Positions 3,738 to 62,197 of a stretch of 64,000 bases of DNA are shown here, piece after piece (within the stretch, counting starts at the first letter, position 1; the number at the start of each line of letters is the position of its first letter). The notes below the pieces were generated by a model. That model did not search any database and was not told the origin of the DNA. It was given only the letters and a program-made list of their open reading frames with translations. The position numbers were made by a program, and so were the translations under genes. This DNA comes from Rhodospirillaceae bacterium (GTDB lineage Bacteria; Pseudomonadota; Alphaproteobacteria; Dongiales; Dongiaceae), in contig SSEL01000024.1 of NCBI GenBank assembly GCA_008012315.1, positions 1 through 64,000 of the forward strand, written 5' to 3'.

Positions 3738-4880
3738 ATGAGCGACAAGCGCCGGGGGAGTGCCAAGGATAACAGCCTCGCCAGCGCCAAACGCTTGGTG
3801 GTGAAGATCGGCAGCGCCTTGCTGGTCGATGACGAGAGCGGTGATATCCGTCGCAAATGGCTTGATGCCCTGGCCGATGATGTCGCTGCTTTGCGGGCCC
3901 GGAATATTGAGGTCGTTCTCGTATCCTCGGGTGCAATTGCCGTCGGCCGCCGTCATCTCGGCCTTGCCGGCGGTGCTTTGCGCCTGGAGGAAAAGCAGGC
4001 GGCGGCAGCAACCGGCCAGATCCGCCTTGCCCATGCCTATCAGGAAAGGCTGGCGCGTCACGATATCACCGTCGCTCAAATTCTGCTGACGCTCGACGAT
4101 ACGGAAGAGCGTCGTCGCCATCTCAATGCCCGCTCGACACTCAATGCCTTGTTGAAGATGGCAGCGGTGCCGGTGATCAATGAAAACGACACCGTCGCAA
4201 CCTCGGAAATCCGCTTCGGCGACAATGACCGGCTTGCCGCGCGCGTCGCTGCCATGATCAGCGCCGATACGCTGGTCCTGCTCTCAGATATCGACGGGCT
4301 CTATACGGCGGATCCGCGCAAGGACAAGGATGCCAGGTTCATCGCGGAGGTGACCGAATTGACCGCCGAGATCGAGGCGATGGCCGGCGAAGCGCCGCCG
4401 GGTTATTCCTCCGGTGGCATGGTGACGAAGCTCACGGCGGCTCGCATCGCCATGTCGGCCGGTTGCCGCATGGCGATCGCCAATGGGCGGCGGATGAATC
4501 CGTTGCAGGCCATGCTGGATGGCGGCACCTGCAGCTGGTTCCTGCCATCGGCGACACCCAAGACGGCGCGCAAGCGCTGGATCGCCGGTGCTTTGAAGCC
4601 GAAAGGCAAGATCGCGGTGGATGCCGGCGCCCTGGGCGCGCTGAAGGCCGGTCGCAGCCTGTTGCCGGCCGGCGTCACGCAGGTCGAGGGGCGTTTCGAA
4701 CGCGGCGATGCGGTGATCGTCACCGATGCCGCCGGCAACGAAGTGGGGCGCGGCCTGATTGCCTATAATGCCCGCGACGCCAAGTTCATCATGGGGCATA
4801 AAAGCCGTGAGATCGCCGGCTTGCTCGGCTATCGTGGCCGTGATGAGATGATCCATCGTGACGATCTGGTATTGAGCTGA
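3738..4880 (+). CDS. proB: Glutamate 5-kinase
   Basis: First step of proline synthesis: ATP-dependent phosphorylation of glutamate to gamma-glutamyl phosphate. The amino-acid kinase domain (about residues 15-265) shows [43 protein letters not shown] and [12 protein letters not shown]-terminal PUA domain follows (from about 285: [10 protein letters not shown]...). The 380-residue length is normal. Its stop is two bases before the proA start, so the two are translationally coupled. Confidence 0.97.
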
Positions 4881-4882
4881 TC

Positions 4883-6187
4883 ATGACCGTTCTCAATCGA
4901 CAGGCCGCAACCGACCATGCCGATCACAACCATGCCGAACTCCGGGCGGAGATGACGCGGCTGGGTCAGACGGCGCGCGCCGCGGCGGCGCAATTGGCGC
5001 TGGCCGGCAGCGATGCCAAGAACCAGGCACTCCGGCAGATGGCGGCGGCTTTGCGGGCGGACCGGGCGAAACTGCTTGCCGCCAATGCCGAGGACATGTC
5101 GGCCGCCAGGCAGCGTGGCCTGAGCCCCGCCTTGCTGGATCGCCTGACGCTGGATGAGAAGCGCATTGAGGTGATGGCCAAGGGCCTTGAAGACATCGCC
5201 GACCTGCCGGATCCGGTTGGTCGCGAATTGGCGGCCTGGGACCGGCCGAACGGCTTGCGGATCGCCCGCGTGGCGGTGCCCCTCGGCGTCATCGGCATTA
5301 TCTATGAAAGCCGGCCCAATGTGACGGCGGATGCGGGCGGCCTTTGCCTCAAATCCGGCAATGCGGCGATCCTGCGCGGCGGCTCGGAAAGTGCGAAATC
5401 CTCCGTGGCCATTCTCGACTGCCTGCAGAAAGGCCTGCGTGAGGCGGGGCTGCCGGAAGCGGCGATCCAGCGTCCGCCGACCACGGATCGTGTGGCAGTC
5501 GGCATCATGCTGACGATGACCGACAGCATCGACCTGATCATTCCCCGCGGCGGACGTGGGCTGATCGAGCGGGTGGCGGCGGAAAGCCGGATCCCGGTGC
5601 TGAAGCATCTCGATGGCATCTGCCATACCTATGTCGATGGTGCGGCCGATCCGGAAAAGGCGCGCCGCATTGTGCTCAATGCGAAGATGCGGCGCACGGG
5701 TATCTGCGGGGCGACGGAGACCCTGCTGGTCGACCGGCGCCGTGGCGATCTGCTCCCGCTTCTCGTCGGCGATCTCATCGCCGCCGGCTGCGAGGTGCGC
5801 GGCGATGCCGAAACCCGGCAGGCCGATGCACGTGTGAAGGCGGCAACCGATCTCGATTGGGACACGGAATATCTGGATGCCATCATCTCGGTGCGCGTGG
5901 TGGATGGTGTTCGCGAGGCGATCGCGCATATCAATCGCCATGGCTCGCATCATACCGAGGCGATCATCACCGAGGACCAGGCGGCGGCGGATCTATTTTT
6001 GCGCGAAGTCGATGCCGGTATCGTAATGCACAACAGCTCCACCCAATTCGCCGATGGCGGCGAATTCGGCATGGGCGCGGAAATCGGCATTTCCACCGGC
6101 AAGCTGCATGCCCGGGGCCCGGTCGGCGCCGAGCAGCTCACCAGCTATAAATACATCGTACGCGGCAACGGGCAGACACGGCCTTGA
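4883..6187 (+). CDS. proA: Gamma-glutamyl phosphate reductase
   Basis: Second step of proline synthesis: NADPH-dependent reduction of gamma-glutamyl phosphate to glutamate semialdehyde. It is an aldehyde-dehydrogenase superfamily protein of 434 residues with [13 protein letters not shown], the conserved [24 protein letters not shown], the catalytic cysteine in [10 protein letters not shown], and the C-terminal [22 protein letters not shown]. The start follows proB almost directly. nadD starts 4 nt after its stop. Confidence 0.97.
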
Positions 6188-32519: not shown

Positions 32520-32886
32520 ATCGTACGGCGAAAGTAACGTACCGGCATCGTCCGAATGGCTGCTGAGTGGAGGGGCTTCTGTTGCCCGGTGCCCCTCCGA
32601 ACCGCGTTCTACGTGAGCGACTTATAGCCCGTTAAGGCTATTAGGCCGCCATACGAAGATCAGACGCAACGTTATCGTTGGCATCTATAGGAATGGCCCG
32701 ATAACGGCGGAACCATGCCGAACAGCAGGATGGCCTTTACCACGCACGTCGATCCTGTTTCGCCCCCGCAATGTCGGTGCCAAGCTGGCTTCCGACGGAG
32801 ATTTGGTGGAGGCGCGGGAGTACTGCCCTCCCGGTCCGCAACGTCTATTCCGCACAACCGTCTACTGTCATAGCTGCCGAAGCAGC
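32520..32886 (-). ncRNA. ssrA: Permuted two-piece tmRNA
   Basis: Rescues stalled ribosomes and tags the nascent peptide. The gene order is circularly permuted, as in other alphaproteobacteria. First comes the acceptor piece, ending T arm GGGAG-GGCAGTA-CTCCC, then CGCCTCC-ACCA (CCA at 32804-32806). An intervening segment of ~36 nt (32768-32803) follows. Then comes the coding piece, starting GGGGGCGAAACAGGATCGAC at 32767. GGGGGCG and CGCCTCC form a 7-bp acceptor stem with the G3-U70 alanine identity pair. The tag frame (32641-32682) reads ANDNVASDLRMAA then TAA. A hairpin GGAGGGGC/GCCCCTCC lies in the 3' half. Outer ends are approximate; the 5' end is set by the promoter, the 3' end is a guess. 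Confidence 0.93.
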
Positions 32887-32892
32887 ATCCTT

Positions 32893-32921
32893 AACATAAG
32901 GCGCCACCGGCGGCCGATCAA
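32893..32921 (-). promoter_or_regulatory. ssrA: ssrA promoter
   Basis: TTGATC (32916-32921) and TATGTT (32893-32898) on the minus strand, spaced 17 nt. The predicted start near 32886 coincides with the stable hairpin GCTGC-TTCG-GCAGC that would open the precursor. Confidence 0.6.
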
Positions 32922-33094
32922 GGGCGCCATTCATCCTGAAAATGATCTATGGCTCAAGCCCTTAGGCGGCAGCGTTCGGCACCCGTCCGCAAGCCTATGC
33001 ATCCGGTCTGGAATCGGGCATAAACTCGCCGTTGGAGCGTCGCGAGAGAGATTCGCGGCGGACTCAGAATAAGCATGGTTAGGATGGGCATGGC

Positions 33095-54386: not shown

Positions 54387-54519
<133 letters not shown>

Positions 54520-55614
54520 TTACGCCTTCGGTTTTACAGTCGTGCCCAAAGCGGCGTCGAGATGCGCGACCGTGATCTGCGCGCGTCGGCGCTGATCCGA
54601 ATATTTTTTTGCCATCTGCATCGTCGCGTGGCCGGTGATATCGGCGACCGCTTCCCATGCGATCCGGTCTGGATAATTGAGGCTCTTGTAGATCTCGTAA
54701 ACGCGCGTGGCGGCGGTATAGCGAAGGCCGTGAGTGGTGAAGTCCTTCGGTAGGTCGGCTTCTTCATAGGCCTCGCGCATCATATGTCGGAAGTAATCTT
54801 CTTTCATGGCGCCACCGCTGGGCGTGGTGAGCAGCGGGCCGACGCGATCCATCAGATGTGCAATCGCCACCTTGAGGTCCGCCGGCATCGGGATCCAGAC
54901 GCGGGTGCCGGTCTTCTCCTGCACGATGCGGATCTCATTATCGCGGATGTCGTTACGACGCATCGCGAAGACATCCTGGCCACGCTGACCGGTATTCAGC
55001 GCGAGCTCGAAAGCCGTCCGCTTGAGATCGCCGATCCGATGGCGCTTGCGAAATTGCACGATTTCATCTTCCTCGGCCGGGCGATGGCCTTCGCCCGTCT
55101 TTAGTTTCTTGATCTTGTCGCTGTTGTGCCAGGTGACGAGCAGATTGCAGAAGGTGACAAGGCCGTTTGCGGCGGACGGGCGATAGTGAGGCGTGCCAGG
55201 CTCGCCTGCAAACTCGCTGCGCAGCTTCTTGATTACCTTCGGTGTGAGACTGGCCATTGGAAGATCGCCGAGCGAGGGAACGCGCCTGATGATCTTGTCG
55301 CCTTCCTTGATCACCTCGCCTTCGCCGAGCACGCTGATATAGCGCAGATAGCCCTTCCGAGTTTTGGGCTTGAGGGAAAGATAATCGTCGCTGCGCTTAT
55401 ACTCGCGCAGGGCATCTGCAATCGAGCCCGGCGCCGGTTCTCCTTTTGGCTGTTCACCGTCAAATGAAGCATGGATGCGGTCATAATTGCGCTTCCATTC
55501 CGTGCTGGCGAACTCACCCTCGATCTTTAGGCTTTGGCCGTCCCGGCGATAGTAGCAGTAGAGCCGCCCCTTCGACTTCACCGCTTGCACATATGGGTAG
55601 TCGACTTTGACCAT
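54520..55614 (-). CDS. int: Tyrosine integrase of the tRNA-Lys element
   Basis: Site-specific recombinase. N-terminal arm-binding and core-binding regions (about 1-170), then a catalytic domain with the Arg of NTGQRGQDVFAMR, HGLRYTAATR (His and second Arg), GHATMQMAKKYSDQ (His, and nucleophile Tyr). Start at 55614 (MVKVDYPYV) preferred, giving 364 residues; the upstream frame is a shadow of the next gene. Last gene of the element before tRNA-Lys. Confidence 0.93.
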   Translation of the reverse strand: MVKVDYPYVQAVKSKGRLYCYYRRDGQSLKIEGEFASTEWKRNYDRIHASFDGEQPKGEPAPGSIADALREYKRSDDYLSLKPKTRKGYLRYISVLGEGEVIKEGDKIIRRVPSLGDLPMASLTPKVIKKLRSEFAGEPGTPHYRPSAANGLVTFCNLLVTWHNSDKIKKLKTGEGHRPAEEDEIVQFRKRHRIGDLKRTAFELALNTGQRGQDVFAMRRNDIRDNEIRIVQEKTGTRVWIPMPADLKVAIAHLMDRVGPLLTTPSGGAMKEDYFRHMMREAYEEADLPKDFTTHGLRYTAATRVYEIYKSLNYPDRIAWEAVADITGHATMQMAKKYSDQRRRAQITVAHLDAALGTTVKPKA

Positions 55615-55615
55615 G

Positions 55616-55894
55616 CTATTTTCCGAACCGGCCGAGGGCTTCTGCCTCGGCATCCGCGACCGCGATCCCTGCTATTCTACCTGAGCCCCGATCGCTCGCG
55701 TCGTCAAGCAACAGCCGATCCCAGGTGAGGCGCGTCCCGGTCTTGCCGCGCTTTTCCGGCCTCGGCCATTTGCCCATCTCGACCTCTTCCAGGAATAGGT
55801 TCACCGAAACGCCGACATAGGCAGCGGCCTGCTCTGACGAAAGCCAGCGAGGCCAGTACGGCAAGTCTTTGATGTCATGAAGCTTTGCGGTCAT
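55616..55894 (-). CDS. Helix-turn-helix protein, likely excisionase
   Basis: 92 residues with an AlpA/MerR-like helix-turn-helix: WLSSEQAAAYVGVSVNLFLEEVEMGKWPRPEKRGKTGTRLTWDRLLLD. Position directly upstream of the integrase suggests a recombination directionality factor. It overlaps the preceding gene as ATGA. Confidence 0.75.
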   Translation of the reverse strand: MTAKLHDIKDLPYWPRWLSSEQAAAYVGVSVNLFLEEVEMGKWPRPEKRGKTGTRLTWDRLLLDDASDRGSGRIAGIAVADAEAEALGRFGK

Positions 55895-56808: not shown

Positions 56809-57584
56809 GCCCCACCCTTCGGCGCGAGACACTCAGGCGCGGGCACCATGACTTCGAATGGCCCTTTGCTTTCGCTCCATGCGCGCTGTCTGCCGCCGTC
56901 TTTGCAGATAGCTGACGCCTCTTCGAAGCTATAGCGACCGGCATGTGAAATGATGCCGCGATACCCGGAGCTATCCGGCCCCCACCATGCGCGATGCTCG
57001 TTCGACCAGATCAGCCATTTGTCCGGCCGCGAAGTCGCTCCACTCGGCTGCATATCGCGCATAGCGAAATCGCGATCGGACTGCTTGTCGAGATCGAGAG
57101 CCGTCATCAGCCATTGCGGTTCGGTGTGATACTGGGTCGATCCGTGCCAAATGGCTTTCGGGATGACGCGGCGCTCGGCGACTTCGCCGCGATAGTTCCG
57201 ATAGGCGAATGTCAGCGGCTCGACACCCTTTATGCGCCCGGTGCCTTCGCAGTCGCCGCACTCGAATTCATAGCCGTTTCCCTGTTCATCCTTGCCGTCA
57301 TAGACGCCGTGGCCTTCGCATCGCTTGCAGTCGATGGGGGACACGGCGTCTTTTGGCAGCTGAAGGTAAAAGTTTTCGAGCACAGCGATTTGAATCTTCA
57401 GCCTTATGATGTGCGCCGCTTGCGCATCCAGCATGAAGGTCTGCCAAGCGGGGCTGCCCATTTCGACGTTGGCCGCTTTGGCATCTGGGAACTCGGCCAC
57501 GCAGGCGTTCCAGGTCGCCTCAAACTTTTGCCGATCGAGCGTGTCTTTTTGGACGGCTTCGGTTTTCAGATCGTTTGACATCAT
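56805..57584 (-). CDS. Element protein with DnaJ-type zinc finger
   Basis: 259 residues. A cysteine-rich module, CKRCEGHGVYDG...ECGDCEGTGRIK, has two CxxCxGxG units as in DnaJ zinc fingers. After it comes LTFAYRNYRGEVAERRVIPKAIWHGSTQYHTEPQWLMTALD, a WYL-like stretch common in phage proteins of unknown role. Start overlaps the upstream stop as ATGA. Confidence 0.65.
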   Translation of the reverse strand: MMSNDLKTEAVQKDTLDRQKFEATWNACVAEFPDAKAANVEMGSPAWQTFMLDAQAAHIIRLKIQIAVLENFYLQLPKDAVSPIDCKRCEGHGVYDGKDEQGNGYEFECGDCEGTGRIKGVEPLTFAYRNYRGEVAERRVIPKAIWHGSTQYHTEPQWLMTALDLDKQSDRDFAMRDMQPSGATSRPDKWLIWSNEHRAWWGPDSSGYRGIISHAGRYSFEEASAICKDGGRQRAWSESKGPFEVMVPAPECLAPKGGA

Positions 57585-58411
57585 GGCTCGACCCCATGAG
57601 GTAAGCGGAAGCCGGCGGCATGCTTGTGGCCACCACCGTCATATCGCTTTGCGATCTCCGAGACGTCGATGCCATCCTCTGCTGACCGGAGGCTGAATTC
57701 GCGGCCGTCGGGCTTGTCATAGTAGCAGGCTGAAAAGAGCTCGCCCTGAGCCATCTGATGGCCAGCATCCGACGAAAAGATGTAAGGCAGGTTGGCCACC
57801 GGCACGTCGTAGCCGCCAATCGTCATGCGATGTTGCATGACTTTCAACAGTTCGGCGATATCCTTGTGATGCTTGCGCTCGATCGCTCGGCCGGCTTCGA
57901 GGAACATCACCAATCCGCCGTCGTCCTCAGCTTCGGCCGCCAAGCGATCCCAGGTGCTGAAGTCATAGGCGTATGAAAACAGATTGGCGGCGAAGTCACG
58001 CGAGCGGCCAATTTCGAAGCGCCAGAGATCGCGGTCCTGGACATAGTGCACGAGGCGCGGGATATCCTTTTCAGGATGGAAATATTGCCAAGCCATCATG
58101 GCTCCAGACCGATCAAGATCAAAATGCGCTTTGACGTTCGGCCGGCCCTTAATCGCCTGCAGATCTTCGGCAGCGGTCTTATGATGATCCAGGATCACGA
58201 CCGATGCAGCGATGTCCGCCATTTTTTCCAACACAGGCAGCTTGTAGCTGAAATCGACCAGGAACACGTGGCGGCCTCGAACATCGGGCGGCGGACTTTG
58301 ATATACGCCGGCATGATAGTCGGCGGTGACGCCGTACTTTCTCCAAACCGCCCACGCTGCGGTGAAGCCATCGGCGCAATTGCCGTGATAGATGCAAATT
58401 GTCTTATTCAT
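57581..58411 (-). CDS. DHH-family phosphoesterase
   Basis: 276 residues. Metal-binding motifs of the DHH superfamily: HGNCADGFTAAWAVW, VDFS, ILDHHKTA, FDLDRSGAMMAWQYF, and the DHHA1-type GGGHKHAAGF at the C-terminus. Family members are nanoRNases, pAp phosphatases or cyclic-dinucleotide phosphodiesterases. Start MNKTICIYHG at 58411; the long upstream extension is a shadow. The substrate in this element is unknown. Confidence 0.85.
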   Translation of the reverse strand: MNKTICIYHGNCADGFTAAWAVWRKYGVTADYHAGVYQSPPPDVRGRHVFLVDFSYKLPVLEKMADIAASVVILDHHKTAAEDLQAIKGRPNVKAHFDLDRSGAMMAWQYFHPEKDIPRLVHYVQDRDLWRFEIGRSRDFAANLFSYAYDFSTWDRLAAEAEDDGGLVMFLEAGRAIERKHHKDIAELLKVMQHRMTIGGYDVPVANLPYIFSSDAGHQMAQGELFSACYYDKPDGREFSLRSAEDGIDVSEIAKRYDGGGHKHAAGFRLPHGVEP

Positions 58412-58422
58412 TGTCGCTCCTT

Positions 58423-58731
58423 TCAGCCGATGCCGGCTGCCTTCTCGATCGCTTCTTTTTTGCACCGCTCCCAGATCGCATTGTTCAATGCTTGGCAGCG
58501 ATCCCATCGCCGCATGGTCAGTACGTGCACGCCGCCATGCACTTCCAGCTCCCGCTGTGCCCGAGCATCGACCCGGTTCCAGAGCTTTTGCACCCTGCGG
58601 CGTCTGGCTTTGGTCGCCCGGCTGATCAACCGCCAGCACTTCCCGCAAATGATCTCGCTGTCGGGGAACTTCTCCCGGCTGGCGGTCCGGCGGCAGAAGG
58701 GGACGAGGCAGGGAACGCGGCCGGGTTTCAT
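58423..58731 (-). CDS. Small basic cysteine-containing element protein
   Basis: 102 residues, rich in Arg and Cys (CLVPFC, ICGKCWRLI), possibly a zinc-binding phage protein. No function assigned. Overlaps the upstream gene by ATGA. Confidence 0.6.
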   Translation of the reverse strand: MKPGRVPCLVPFCRRTASREKFPDSEIICGKCWRLISRATKARRRRVQKLWNRVDARAQRELEVHGGVHVLTMRRWDRCQALNNAIWERCKKEAIEKAAGIG

Positions 58732-59609
58732 TCCCGGTCGCTCCGCTCGTATGCCAATTGGATGTCGGCAGAGAGCTGAGTGTCCTCGACGGATGCGAAG
58801 AGACGGTCATAATTCCAGGACGTGTCTCGGAATGTCCGGCCGTCGCCATCCCAGCTATTCAGACAGCCGACGATATCGTTGGCGATCTCCTTGTCCTGAT
58901 CCGTCACGATCTTGAAGCGGTCGAGAGCCACGCTGACAGGGCCGGGGCCATCGGACCAGTCGCCCCGCACCCGACGCATCGCGACGGCGAGGTCGAGCCG
59001 CTGGTCCTTGGTGCGGAGCGCATCGAGGATGTCCTGCCAATCACTATCTGGATCGAGGTCGTAACGGAGGATAATGGCAGCCAGCTCCAGGTTGGCCCGG
59101 CGTTCCGCTTTCCGCCGCTCTTCCGCTTGCTGGCGTGCCGATTGGGCCTGCTGGTCTTCCAGTTTCCCGGCCTCGGCATAGGCGTCATAATCGCGCTTCA
59201 GCCGCTCATAGGTTGAGGTGGCATAGTCGAAGCCATCGTCAGTGGGCACATGCTTTCTGAGATCGTTGAGATATCCGGCCTCCATCGTGATGGAACGCGG
59301 ATATCGCGCGCGGGATTTGGTGTCGCGCTCTGACCACTTCGCCGGCATGCCGACCTCGGCCATGAGACTTTCAATCCGCAGCCGGATGACTTTATTGATC
59401 TCCATGGCCGGCCGGTTCTTTTCATGAGCCTCGACGTCTTTGCGGCGCGCGGTTTCCAGTTGCTCAAGCGCATATTTCGCGATTTGCGATTTTGTCTTGT
59501 CGCCGTGCGTGCGCATATAACTTGCGTAGCTTGCCGGCGATGTCATGCATCGGCTGACCGCGCCGCACTTTTCAACTGGCTGGATTTTGGTCGTGTCGAT
59601 ATCGGCCAT
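58728..59609 (-). CDS. Hypothetical element protein
   Basis: 293 residues, helical, with a Glu/Arg/Gln coiled coil (QQAQSARQQAEERRKAERR) near residues 150-170. No family recognised. It lies 4 nt after the ATPase gene. Confidence 0.6.
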   Translation of the reverse strand: MADIDTTKIQPVEKCGAVSRCMTSPASYASYMRTHGDKTKSQIAKYALEQLETARRKDVEAHEKNRPAMEINKVIRLRIESLMAEVGMPAKWSERDTKSRARYPRSITMEAGYLNDLRKHVPTDDGFDYATSTYERLKRDYDAYAEAGKLEDQQAQSARQQAEERRKAERRANLELAAIILRYDLDPDSDWQDILDALRTKDQRLDLAVAMRRVRGDWSDGPGPVSVALDRFKIVTDQDKEIANDIVGCLNSWDGDGRTFRDTSWNYDRLFASVEDTQLSADIQLAYERSDRE

Positions 59610-59613
59610 TACG

Positions 59614-61341
59614 TCACCCTTCGATAAAAAGGACGGAGAGCGCGACCACCATGCCGGCCGACGGGTAGTCGATGAAGCCCAGCGACCGGAGAGACCCGAG
59701 ATTGTTGGCGTACCCGCTCGACGTGGCGGACTGGCCGGATTGCTCCGCCAGGTCCGCCTTGGAAAGATGAACGGGATAGGCGCCGATCAGGGCCTCGAGA
59801 ATTCGCCATTTGGCTGGCGGTAGCTGCCGCTGCAGTGTGGCGTGAAGGTCGGCAGATGTTGCCGGTCGTTCCGGCTCATTGGACTTGCGCCGTCCAGCAT
59901 CGGTCAAGGCCACCTTACCACTGGCGGGGTATTCGATCAGCCCGGCCGATCGCAGCGCCCCGAGGTTGTTAGCATAGCCGGAGCTGGTTGGGCTTTGATC
60001 CGCCAGGAGCGCAAGTTGGGTCTTGTTGGCCTGCTCAATACGAACGGTCTCCAACCAGCGTAGGGCATCGACAATGCGCTGCTTTGCTGGGGGAAGCCCG
60101 GTGATGTGTGTCGATAGAGGGTTGGAGCGGACGACGGGGGTCGAACCCGCGACACTCGGCTTGGAAGGCCGATGCTCTACCGGCTGAGCTACGTCCGCGA
60201 TTGGTTGAGGGTTTGGCGCTCCTTGCACGCCGATCGGCGGGTTGACGGCATCATGAATGTGCTGCGTCTGGAGCAGGATCTCATTGATGCAGCGGGCCAC
60301 CTTGCCGCTGGTCTCCATCATGACGCGACGCTGAGAGGCGACGCCGGCGGCATAGCCCCGCTCGTAGCCGTCGGCGCCGGCCTTCTCGACCTCGGCATGG
60401 TTCTGCGTGCCCTTGGCGGCCTTCTCCAGCTCCACAATCCTCCGCCGGAGGGCCACAGGATCGTTTGCCGCCACTTCGGCCTCCACGGTGGCCAGCTGGG
60501 CCCTTATGGCCGTGAGATCGGTGCTGGCGCGCTTTGCCGGACCTTTGATCGTCTCGCCGCGCTTCGGCGTTCTGGAGCTATCGAAGGTCCGGATCCGGGG
60601 GAACTTGTGTTCGACCAGGATCCCATGGCCTGGCGCCCAGACGATGCCGGCACCGACCTGCAGCTTCGGCAGGCCGGCGATGATCCGCTTTTCGTCCGCC
60701 TTGTCGGCCTGGCCGTCAATCCAGGCCTGCAGGGCGTTCCGATCCTGGCTCGAGGTCAGCTTCATGGCGATCAGGACATCGAGCTGGGACAGGACATCCT
60801 TGTGGATCACGGCCGGCCGCTGGGTGATCAGCCAGGGCACGAAGCCGCGAACACGGCCGCGCCGCACGATCTCGTCAATCCGGGAGCCGAGGATCTGGGC
60901 AGCGGGCTCGATCGGCTTCTGCGGCGCCCAGAGGTCGGCTTCATCGAGGATAAGATGCAACGGCTGCCGGTTCTTCGCATAGATCGCCTCGGCGAAGTCG
61001 CGCATGAAACGGCGTCGGGATCCTTGGCCGGAAAGCTCCGACAGGTCCACGATGCAGGAAAAATCGCCAGCCGCGACCAACTCGGCCAGCGCGGTACCGG
61101 CTTGCTCAGTCAGGGGCACATCCGCGTGCCGTCCGCCGAAACCGACCACTGGATAGCCGGGCCCGTCGCCGGATGCGTTCGAACGCAGCCCGAACCACAC
61201 TCCCAATGGGTCCACCACGCAAAGCCTGACGCCCATATCGAGCAGCCGTTCGGCCTGTGTCTTCGCGGCATAGGTCTTGCCGGAGCCCGACGTGCCGACA
61301 ATGGCAACCCGGTCGTCGAGGATTGCATCCAGGTTCTTCAT
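59614..61341 (-). CDS. HerA-like (DUF87) ATPase with tandem winged helices and an internal tRNA
   Basis: 575 residues. Residues 1-230 form a HerA/FtsK-like ATPase: Walker A GTSGSGKTYAAK, Walker B LHLILDEADLWAPQ, then RRGRVRGFVPWLITQRP. A coiled coil follows (about 285-330). Residues about 382-407 are encoded by an intact tRNA-Gly. The C-terminus is two tandem winged-helix repeats (PAKQRIVDALRWLE... and PAKWRILEALIGAYP..., each with SGYANNLG.LRS.G.I.YP). Start 61341 overlaps the upstream stop as ATGA. Likely DNA-handling protein of the element. Confidence 0.75.
   Translation of the reverse strand: MKNLDAILDDRVAIVGTSGSGKTYAAKTQAERLLDMGVRLCVVDPLGVWFGLRSNASGDGPGYPVVGFGGRHADVPLTEQAGTALAELVAAGDFSCIVDLSELSGQGSRRRFMRDFAEAIYAKNRQPLHLILDEADLWAPQKPIEPAAQILGSRIDEIVRRGRVRGFVPWLITQRPAVIHKDVLSQLDVLIAMKLTSSQDRNALQAWIDGQADKADEKRIIAGLPKLQVGAGIVWAPGHGILVEHKFPRIRTFDSSRTPKRGETIKGPAKRASTDLTAIRAQLATVEAEVAANDPVALRRRIVELEKAAKGTQNHAEVEKAGADGYERGYAAGVASQRRVMMETSGKVARCINEILLQTQHIHDAVNPPIGVQGAPNPQPIADVAQPVEHRPSKPSVAGSTPVVRSNPLSTHITGLPPAKQRIVDALRWLETVRIEQANKTQLALLADQSPTSSGYANNLGALRSAGLIEYPASGKVALTDAGRRKSNEPERPATSADLHATLQRQLPPAKWRILEALIGAYPVHLSKADLAEQSGQSATSSGYANNLGSLRSLGFIDYPSAGMVVALSVLFIEG
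60123..60198 (-). tRNA. tRNA-Gly(TCC) inside the ATPase reading frame
   Basis: Complete 76-nt cloverleaf with encoded CCA: acceptor GCGGACG/CGTCCGC, U73, D arm GCTC-AGCCGGTA-GAGC, anticodon stem TCGGC/GCCGA with loop CTTCCAA (anticodon TCC), T arm GCGGG-TTCGACC-CCCGT. It is on the same strand and in frame with the surrounding ORF, which it does not interrupt. Confidence 0.95.
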
Positions 61342-61862
61342 GTCTGGCTCCAAATAACGAGTTCCTGATTGTCAGGTATGCGATGACGGCCGCGTGCCAT
61401 CGGATGTCTGGGCGATCCGTCGGCATTGGTGCCCCAGCACCAAAAATGCTCGTGCTTGCCTTTGATGTCCTCGAGGAGGTCGATCGCGAACTCGACGTCC
61501 TGACAAATGGCGCCAAAGCAGACGATGATCTTGGACGCCAACTGAGCCTGATCTCGGATCGCAACCCTGTTTGCTTGCAGCCAGACATCAGCCGCCTTCG
61601 TTTTCGCCCATTCCCAGGCATCGCGAGGGACGGGCGATACCAAAGGAATGATGTTCATGAGGATGAAGCGGCCAAATCCGCCGGCTTTCGTGAGGGTGAT
61701 CATCCGAAGGATAGATGGATCATCCATGAAGCCATTGCCGAAACTCGGATTGTGGCCGATCAGGAGCGCGCAGGGCAGATCAGCGTCCCATTCACGGGTC
61801 AGCGAAGACCGCATGTTGTGGCTGAAATAGGATGCGTCGCGTTTCAGGAAAAGCTCGCTCAT
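61338..61862 (-). CDS. DUF1643-family protein
   Basis: 174 residues resembling DUF1643: ALLIGHNPSFGNGFMDDPSILRMI, RFILMNIIPLVSP, IVCFGAICQDVE and a C-terminal HPMARGRHRIPDNQELV. Function unknown; common in phages and islands. Start MSELFLKRDA at 61862, ATGA overlap on both sides. Confidence 0.75.
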   Translation of the reverse strand: MSELFLKRDASYFSHNMRSSLTREWDADLPCALLIGHNPSFGNGFMDDPSILRMITLTKAGGFGRFILMNIIPLVSPVPRDAWEWAKTKAADVWLQANRVAIRDQAQLASKIIVCFGAICQDVEFAIDLLEDIKGKHEHFWCWGTNADGSPRHPMARGRHRIPDNQELVIWSQT

Positions 61863-62197
61863 GCTGCCTTCTTCTCTCGGTTGCAGATCTCGACCACCCG
61901 CCAGCATTGCGCCTCGGTCAGGCGGTCGACGTGGCAGTCGGTCAGGGCGATGTTGAGTTCCTTGGCGATGCGCCGGCGGGCGGCCTTCAAGCGGATGGGC
62001 AGCCGGGCAATCGCCATATGGGCTGCGGCGCGGGCCCGGCGTAGGTCGGCGTTAGCAAGCGTGCCGATCGGGCGGCCGTGCTTGTCGGCGCCGCAATACG
62101 CGTCACACGTCGGTTCCCCGGTGCACACCCAGGCTCCCGCCGGATGCTCGCCGATCAGCTCTGCCGCCGAGCTGCAATATGGGCAGGTAACCTTCAT
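61859..62197 (-). CDS. Zinc-ribbon protein (DUF3268-like)
   Basis: 112 residues with an N-terminal zinc ribbon, CPYCSS...WVCTGEPTCDAYCGAD, then a helical region RRARAAAHMAIARLPIRLKAARRRIAKEL. Resembles DUF3268 phage proteins. Start at 62197 overlaps the upstream stop. Confidence 0.7.
   Translation of the reverse strand: MKVTCPYCSSAAELIGEHPAGAWVCTGEPTCDAYCGADKHGRPIGTLANADLRRARAAAHMAIARLPIRLKAARRRIAKELNIALTDCHVDRLTEAQCWRVVEICNREKKAA

Follow-up and report, generated by a model that had tools for sequence, protein, structure and literature searches.

In the integration-dependent immunity of mycobacteriophages, the attP core lies inside the repressor ORF (PMC9934374, citing Broussard et al. 2013), and in the suicidal integrases of archaeal elements (SSV1, pTN3 and pT26-2), a tRNA-derived att site is translated inside the protein (PMC8371274). 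Elements related to the latter use many different tRNAs, and their N- and C-terminal protein halves have been proposed to be swapped at the att site (PMC8371274). In tRNA-dependent lysogeny, integration destroys a host tRNA and the phage brings a tRNA of that same isotype (PMC10865867), and AntiFam records spurious translations of tRNAs as false ORFs (PMC9710616, PMC5897793). We found no description of tRNA genes nested in ORFs in the open-access literature. To our knowledge, the other settings in which protein genes contain tRNA sequence are att sites, annotation artefacts and the compact genomes of organelles.

The gene described here belongs to a prophage in a 64,000-nucleotide stretch of a Rhodospirillaceae bacterium contig (SSEL01000024.1; hereafter the window) and encodes a HerA-like ATPase whose reading frame passes through a whole tRNA, as do the genes of several viral relatives (the carriers). 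It shares with integration-dependent immunity an in-frame, tRNA-related sequence in a phage gene that serves as both codons and nucleic acid; however, the immunity systems feature an att core of roughly 40 bp and a gene that is truncated by integration, whereas the window displays a complete tRNA with CCA and an intact ATPase, and in four carriers, unlike those systems, the integrase adjoins a tRNA other than the embedded one. The carriers recall the suicidal integrases in the diversity of tRNAs used and in the exchange of protein halves, but in those systems it is the integrase gene that contains the tRNA piece, and this piece is the integration target, whereas the HerA-like ATPase gene contains a tRNA that does not serve as one. 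As in tRNA-dependent lysogeny, a temperate phage here combines a tyrosine integrase with its own tRNA; unlike in that system, isotypes or anticodons differ and the tRNA lies inside an ORF, and the attachment tRNA-Lys of the window is intact. The protein shares with AntiFam entries the pattern VAQ..E...GS.P...RS, which is the translated sense strand of a tRNA; unlike such entries, the segments on both sides of the embedded tRNA form one conserved protein in tRNA-free homologues.

The ATPase ORF (59614–61353, minus strand) comprises 579 codons from a TTG. On the same strand, it encodes a HerA/FtsK-type ATPase domain (about residues 14–250; 60604–61314; Pfam DUF87/HerA_C, PDB HerA and AlphaFold), a coiled-coil region (residues 281–369; 60247–60513; AlphaFold secondary structure), a disordered linker that holds the tRNA (residues 371–417; 60103–60243; AlphaFold pLDDT below 50) and two winged helices (residues 422–490 and 500–575; 59884–60090 and 59629–59856; AlphaFold). 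The AlphaFold model, based on a 23-sequence alignment, has a mean pLDDT of 86.5. The ATPase domain scores 28.9 bits against the Pfam HerA_C model (cut-off 22), displays the Walker A motif GTSGSGKT and matches PDB HerA in sequence and in fold. The NCBIfam equivalogs for the HerA DNA-repair helicase and the defense HerA were rejected as assignments (38 bits versus a cut-off of 800), as was the packaging terminase suggested by the phrog_2666 label of the ATPase, since the prophage has a separate terminase (L036:17767–19395, phrog_2). The neighbors of the ATPase gene in the prophage are a DHH-family phosphoesterase (phrog_4771; 57581–58849, minus strand) and a DUF1643 protein (61338–61907, minus strand). 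Within one protein, both winged helices have the same putative recognition stretch (in the window, SPTSSGYANNLGALR and SATSSGYANNLGSLR), which varies between phages. There is no in-frame ATG or GTG from the tRNA to the first winged helix and the first TTG is already inside the latter, so the C-terminal half is without an obvious start of its own.

The linker encloses an intact tRNA-Gly(TCC) of 76 nt with an encoded CCA (60123–60198, minus strand), which occupies residues 386–411 and begins with its first base on a codon boundary, on the strand of the ATPase ORF. It scores 70.5 bits in Rfam (gathering score 29) and 85.6 bits with a tRNA model made from the host's own tRNAs; in the ATPase frame it reads ADVAQPVEHRPSKPSVAGSTPVVRSN, with zero stops. 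Its stems are fully paired without a mismatch, T8, A14, G18, G19, TTC at 54–56 and A58 are all present and the copy has the cloverleaf of a canonical bacterial tRNA gene; also present are C35, C36, U73 and the first pairs, which we take to be glycine identity elements. The preliminary description had placed a complete tRNA-Gly(TCC) with CCA, on the same strand and in frame, between the ATPase/coiled-coil half and the tandem winged helices of a 575-codon ORF. ARAGORN, Rfam and stem pairing agree on that tRNA, its codon count holds from the ATG at codon 5 (61341) and AlphaFold puts the tRNA-coded residues where it had located them, in a 47-residue segment of pLDDT <50 between the end of the coiled coil (residue 369) and the winged helices. 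One frame of the tRNA has the usual TAG at positions 8–10 and the other two are open, so that adding no stop is by itself a two-in-three event; it is the recurrence in relatives, rather than the open frame, that goes beyond chance.

The host genome has 44 tRNA matches, including tRNA-Gly with the anticodons TCC, GCC and CCC outside the ATPase gene, so the embedded copy is unneeded for glycine codons. GGA and GGG usage in the prophage is 0.106 and 0.151, versus 0.069 and 0.091 in the flanking host genes. The window also contains a two-piece (permuted) tmRNA gene (32566–32925, minus strand) of alphaproteobacterial type, which is ordinary for the class. The best bacterial match of the embedded tRNA is at 88% (an alphaproteobacterial tRNA-Gly(CCC) on a Rhodobacter megaplasmid) and its best phage match at 80–82%, versus 93–94% to the embedded copy in the relative L124. 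These values speak against a recent capture from a known host and are suggestive of one shared embedded lineage for the tRNAs of the window and L124.

Iterated searches of viral contigs yielded, among the matches listed and with one truncated duplicate discounted, 237 distinct ATPase ORFs including that of the window; this set rests on the best 80 per scan of about 400 relatives in viral contigs. ARAGORN detects a tRNA at the linker in eight of the 237 listed ORFs, the window among them: Gly(TCC) in three (the window, L124 and L127), Arg(CCG) in three (L064, L071 and L054, the last with the same ATPase as L083), Gln(TTG) in one (L130) and an Ile-like (TAT) tRNA without CCA in one (L119). In these carriers, the tRNA lies at 63–80% of the stop-to-stop ORF, with the coil on one side and the winged helices on the other, and scores 69 to 86 bits with the covariance model made from the host's tRNAs. 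All eight have it on the coding strand with an uninterrupted frame (frame 0 in six, and frames 1 and 2 in one each), which, we argue, indicates selection for one continuous protein. A further linker, in L046, scores 19.4 bits with the same model and is probably a ninth case, a relic of an embedded tRNA that would illustrate its decay. The remaining linkers of the listed relatives occupy the same location and are mostly Pro/Ala-rich and weakly conserved. L124 was initially picked up by a scan for the letters of the tRNA and proved to encode the ATPase, at 34% identity. In a FastTree tree of the ATPase half, the carriers are scattered, each separate, and need eight changes (L127 is outside that tree). 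Because four kinds of tRNA occur at the same joint in distantly related phages, we consider the arrangement recurrent rather than a single accident.

Besides the window's own, no ATPase relative was found in the host's order (17 genomes, including that of the window) or in 385 genomes of its class; a search of genome contigs gave one, from Bradyrhizobium (L040), with a tRNA-free ORF. In six of the seven carrier virus contigs (40–64 kb), the embedded tRNA is the sole tRNA. Scans of 2.9 million viral contigs with Gly- and Arg-type patterns, which are biased in being built from the same sequences, recovered ATPase-embedded copies only. In L307, ARAGORN calls a tRNA-Gln(ttg) (5660–5730) one base past the end of the ATPase ORF (3911–5659), followed by a tRNA-Glu call (5808–5881).

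The flanking DNA of the relatives (1.63 Mb) holds 20 tRNA calls, none of which splits an ATPase ORF; these outside tRNAs sit in shorter frames (the longest 313 aa, most below 200). At the flanking tRNA density, 237 linkers of about 250 bp would be expected to hold about 0.73 tRNAs, versus eight observed. The corresponding Poisson probability is about 1e-6 for eight carriers, with all flanking DNA as the baseline although the linker is insertion-tolerant, and about 1e-4 if just six carriers are counted as independent, again assuming a 250-bp linker. The linker density is about 0.13 tRNAs per kb, and by our estimate, placing all 20 outside tRNAs in the roughly 8% of phage DNA that is non-coding gives a similar density; insertion tolerance thus accounts for some of the enrichment. 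Measured per kilobase against insertion-tolerant DNA, linkers are only modestly enriched, with an excess over non-coding DNA that we estimate at perhaps about five-fold once the in-frame, no-stop filter is counted.

Comparison of the two halves of the protein shows the linker to be a module-exchange joint, at which ATPase and winged-helix halves have been re-paired extensively. Among 42 pairs with ATPase halves at least 80% identical, C-terminal similarity is absent in 17 and below 40% in 13 (30/42 in total); conversely, among 78 pairs whose C-terminal halves are at least 60% identical, ATPase identity falls below 45% in 35. The ATPase halves of L070, which has no tRNA, and L071 are 91% identical while their other halves are unrelated; swapping of the tandem winged-helix module wholesale between near-identical ATPases is also seen in L131/L144 and L136/L142, as it is in L070/L071. 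The tRNA marks some of the edges: between L124 and L127, homology resumes exactly at tRNA nucleotide 1, the alignment of L071 with L110, which lacks a tRNA, begins at the final two tRNA nucleotides, and the window and L124 have only the tRNA plus 6 nt in common (93.9%), with unalignable flanks. The left block edges lie mostly at the start of the coil, 200–280 bp upstream of the tRNA. Most module exchanges in the ATPase family proceed without a tRNA, which is therefore not required for them. The preliminary description had considered invasion of the linker by a tRNA cassette, and the tRNA-free state of most homologues, the scatter of the carriers and the two block edges at tRNA ends all support it. 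It had also named linkers without tRNA structure in homologues as evidence against its reading: such linkers are found in the 229 of 237 listed homologues in which ARAGORN detects no tRNA at the joint, but seven others carry tRNAs there.

Within the block shared by L124 and L127, synonymous differences affect 1 of 19 tRNA codons versus 61 of 146 winged-helix codons (Fisher p = 0.002), and fourfold sites are changed at 0 of 14 versus 41 of 90 (p = 0.0007), with the amino acids of the tRNA segment differing at 6 of 25 positions. In this one pair, the tRNA appears to be conserved as nucleic acid and not as protein, or else to have been recently homogenised. The window and L124 tRNAs have four differences, all non-synonymous, of which three are at the normally variable loop positions 16, 59 and 60. 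Several copies deviate from a standard tRNA: two stem pairs are broken in L127, one non-standard pair is found in each of L064, L071 and L130, and the core is unusual in L124 (C8) and L054 (U56). With such defects in these six, strict tRNA function is not conserved everywhere. The L127 ATPase (L127:2051–3200 in IMGVR_UViG_3300028024_000010) is additionally interrupted in frame at the Walker B motif by about 1 kb of inserted sequence, with the edges EEAHEF/CLSEDTEILTKSG and VTGN/CPKERAG, versus EEAHEFAPKERAG in L124. The insert resembles an intein, and the gene would then hold both an intein-like insert and a tRNA; Pfam showed no intein match.

The precedents for tRNA-derived sequence inside ORFs, in integration-dependent immunity and the suicidal integrases, suggest that the embedded tRNA might be, or have been, an attP core whose use would split the ATPase gene, or else a replacement for a host tRNA destroyed by integration. 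A tyrosine integrase 1–6 kb from the ATPase in most carriers and the single phage tRNA, as in tRNA-dependent lysogeny, would fit. However, the window prophage is integrated and its ATPase is intact. Its integrase (54520–55653, minus strand; Pfam PF00589; phrog_1) abuts a tRNA-Lys(CTT) (54387–54462, plus strand), which is distinct from the embedded tRNA and likely the attachment tRNA; no exact attR copy is present in the assembly, just a fragment with two mismatches on another contig. Likewise, the integrase of L071 (embedded Arg(CCG)) adjoins an intact tRNA-Arg(CCT), that of L127 (embedded Gly(TCC)) a 40-nt piece from the start of a tRNA-Pro(TGG), at 97.5%, and that of L083 (embedded Arg) a 3′ piece of a tRNA-Thr(GGT), at 89%. 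These two pieces, at L278 1335–1374 (L127 phage) and L280 80–126 (L083 phage), are likely att cores. The embedded anticodon is never matched, which contradicts an attP/attB role in these four carriers. Replacement of a destroyed tRNA is at odds with the differing isotypes in the window (Gly/Lys), L127 (Gly/Pro) and L083 (Arg/Thr), and in L071, where both are Arg, with the CCG and CCT anticodons and the intact att tRNA. We thus regard an attachment-site origin or role as very improbable.

We posit as the most likely explanation, with a probability of about 0.5, that a tRNA cassette lodged at a domain-exchange joint and has been partly preserved as nucleic acid. Recombination in the coil/linker region repeatedly re-pairs the ATPase half with the DNA-binding half and its two winged helices; this joint would have captured tRNA genes several times (Gly, Arg, Gln and Ile-like), and these would persist there, as a disordered linker tolerates any open frame. 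The tRNA sequence would outlast the surrounding synonymous sites if tRNA is made from some transcripts or if it is re-used as homology for exchange. Under this explanation, the full-length ATPase is presumably made, the tRNA and the full-length protein would arise from different transcript copies and the tRNA would have taken part in module exchange. A selected dual-function RNA, in which a transcript serves either for translation of the full-length ATPase or, once cleaved by RNase P and 3′ processing, as the source of a working tRNA, ranks second and is a possible but doubtful alternative. Ribosomes moving across the linker would prevent the tRNA from folding, and under weak translation, cutting would prevail. 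The phage's sole tRNA would thereby be coupled to how much of the C-terminal DNA-binding half is made. The preliminary description's point that one RNA cannot yield both tRNA and full-length protein follows from the gene layout, and its proposed RNase P switch may set the level of the C-terminal half. The absence of any further tRNA from six of the seven virus contigs with an embedded copy, the mismatch-free window tRNA with its standard residues and presumed glycine identity elements, the synonymous constraint over the L124/L127 tRNA, the lack of an in-frame ATG or GTG before the first winged helix and the prophage's higher use of GGA and GGG than in flanking host genes would all fit such an RNA, but the joint is tRNA-free in 229 of 237 listed homologues, stems are damaged or core residues unusual in several carriers and the host already owns tRNA-Gly TCC, GCC and CCC. 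Phage recombination often has tRNA genes as donors, and a 76-nt open-frame insert is harmless in few coding places, among them a disordered linker; a neutral capture, harmless in the linker and functionless as both RNA and protein, would accord with the damaged copies and the L046 relic, the weak conservation of the linker across all homologues and the modest enrichment per kb of tolerant DNA. We rank it third and deem it unlikely, as synonymous-site conservation in the L124/L127 tRNA greatly exceeds that in the neighboring module of the same block and eight intact or nearly intact copies stand against one recognisable relic. Compared with all these, the cassette at the exchange joint remains our preferred reading.

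Where an annotation pipeline masks ORFs over tRNAs, a real gene could be disrupted in this case. That a single phage gene is both an mRNA and a tRNA precursor, with a full-length motor protein and the phage's only tRNA competing for one transcript, and that this arose repeatedly with different isotypes at an exchange joint, we consider somewhat unlikely. A recurrent, in-frame, full-length tRNA at a single joint of one phage protein family, with an att role contradicted in four carriers, would mean either a new kind of competition between RNA and protein or that tRNA genes may serve as joints for the swapping of DNA-binding domains in these phages.
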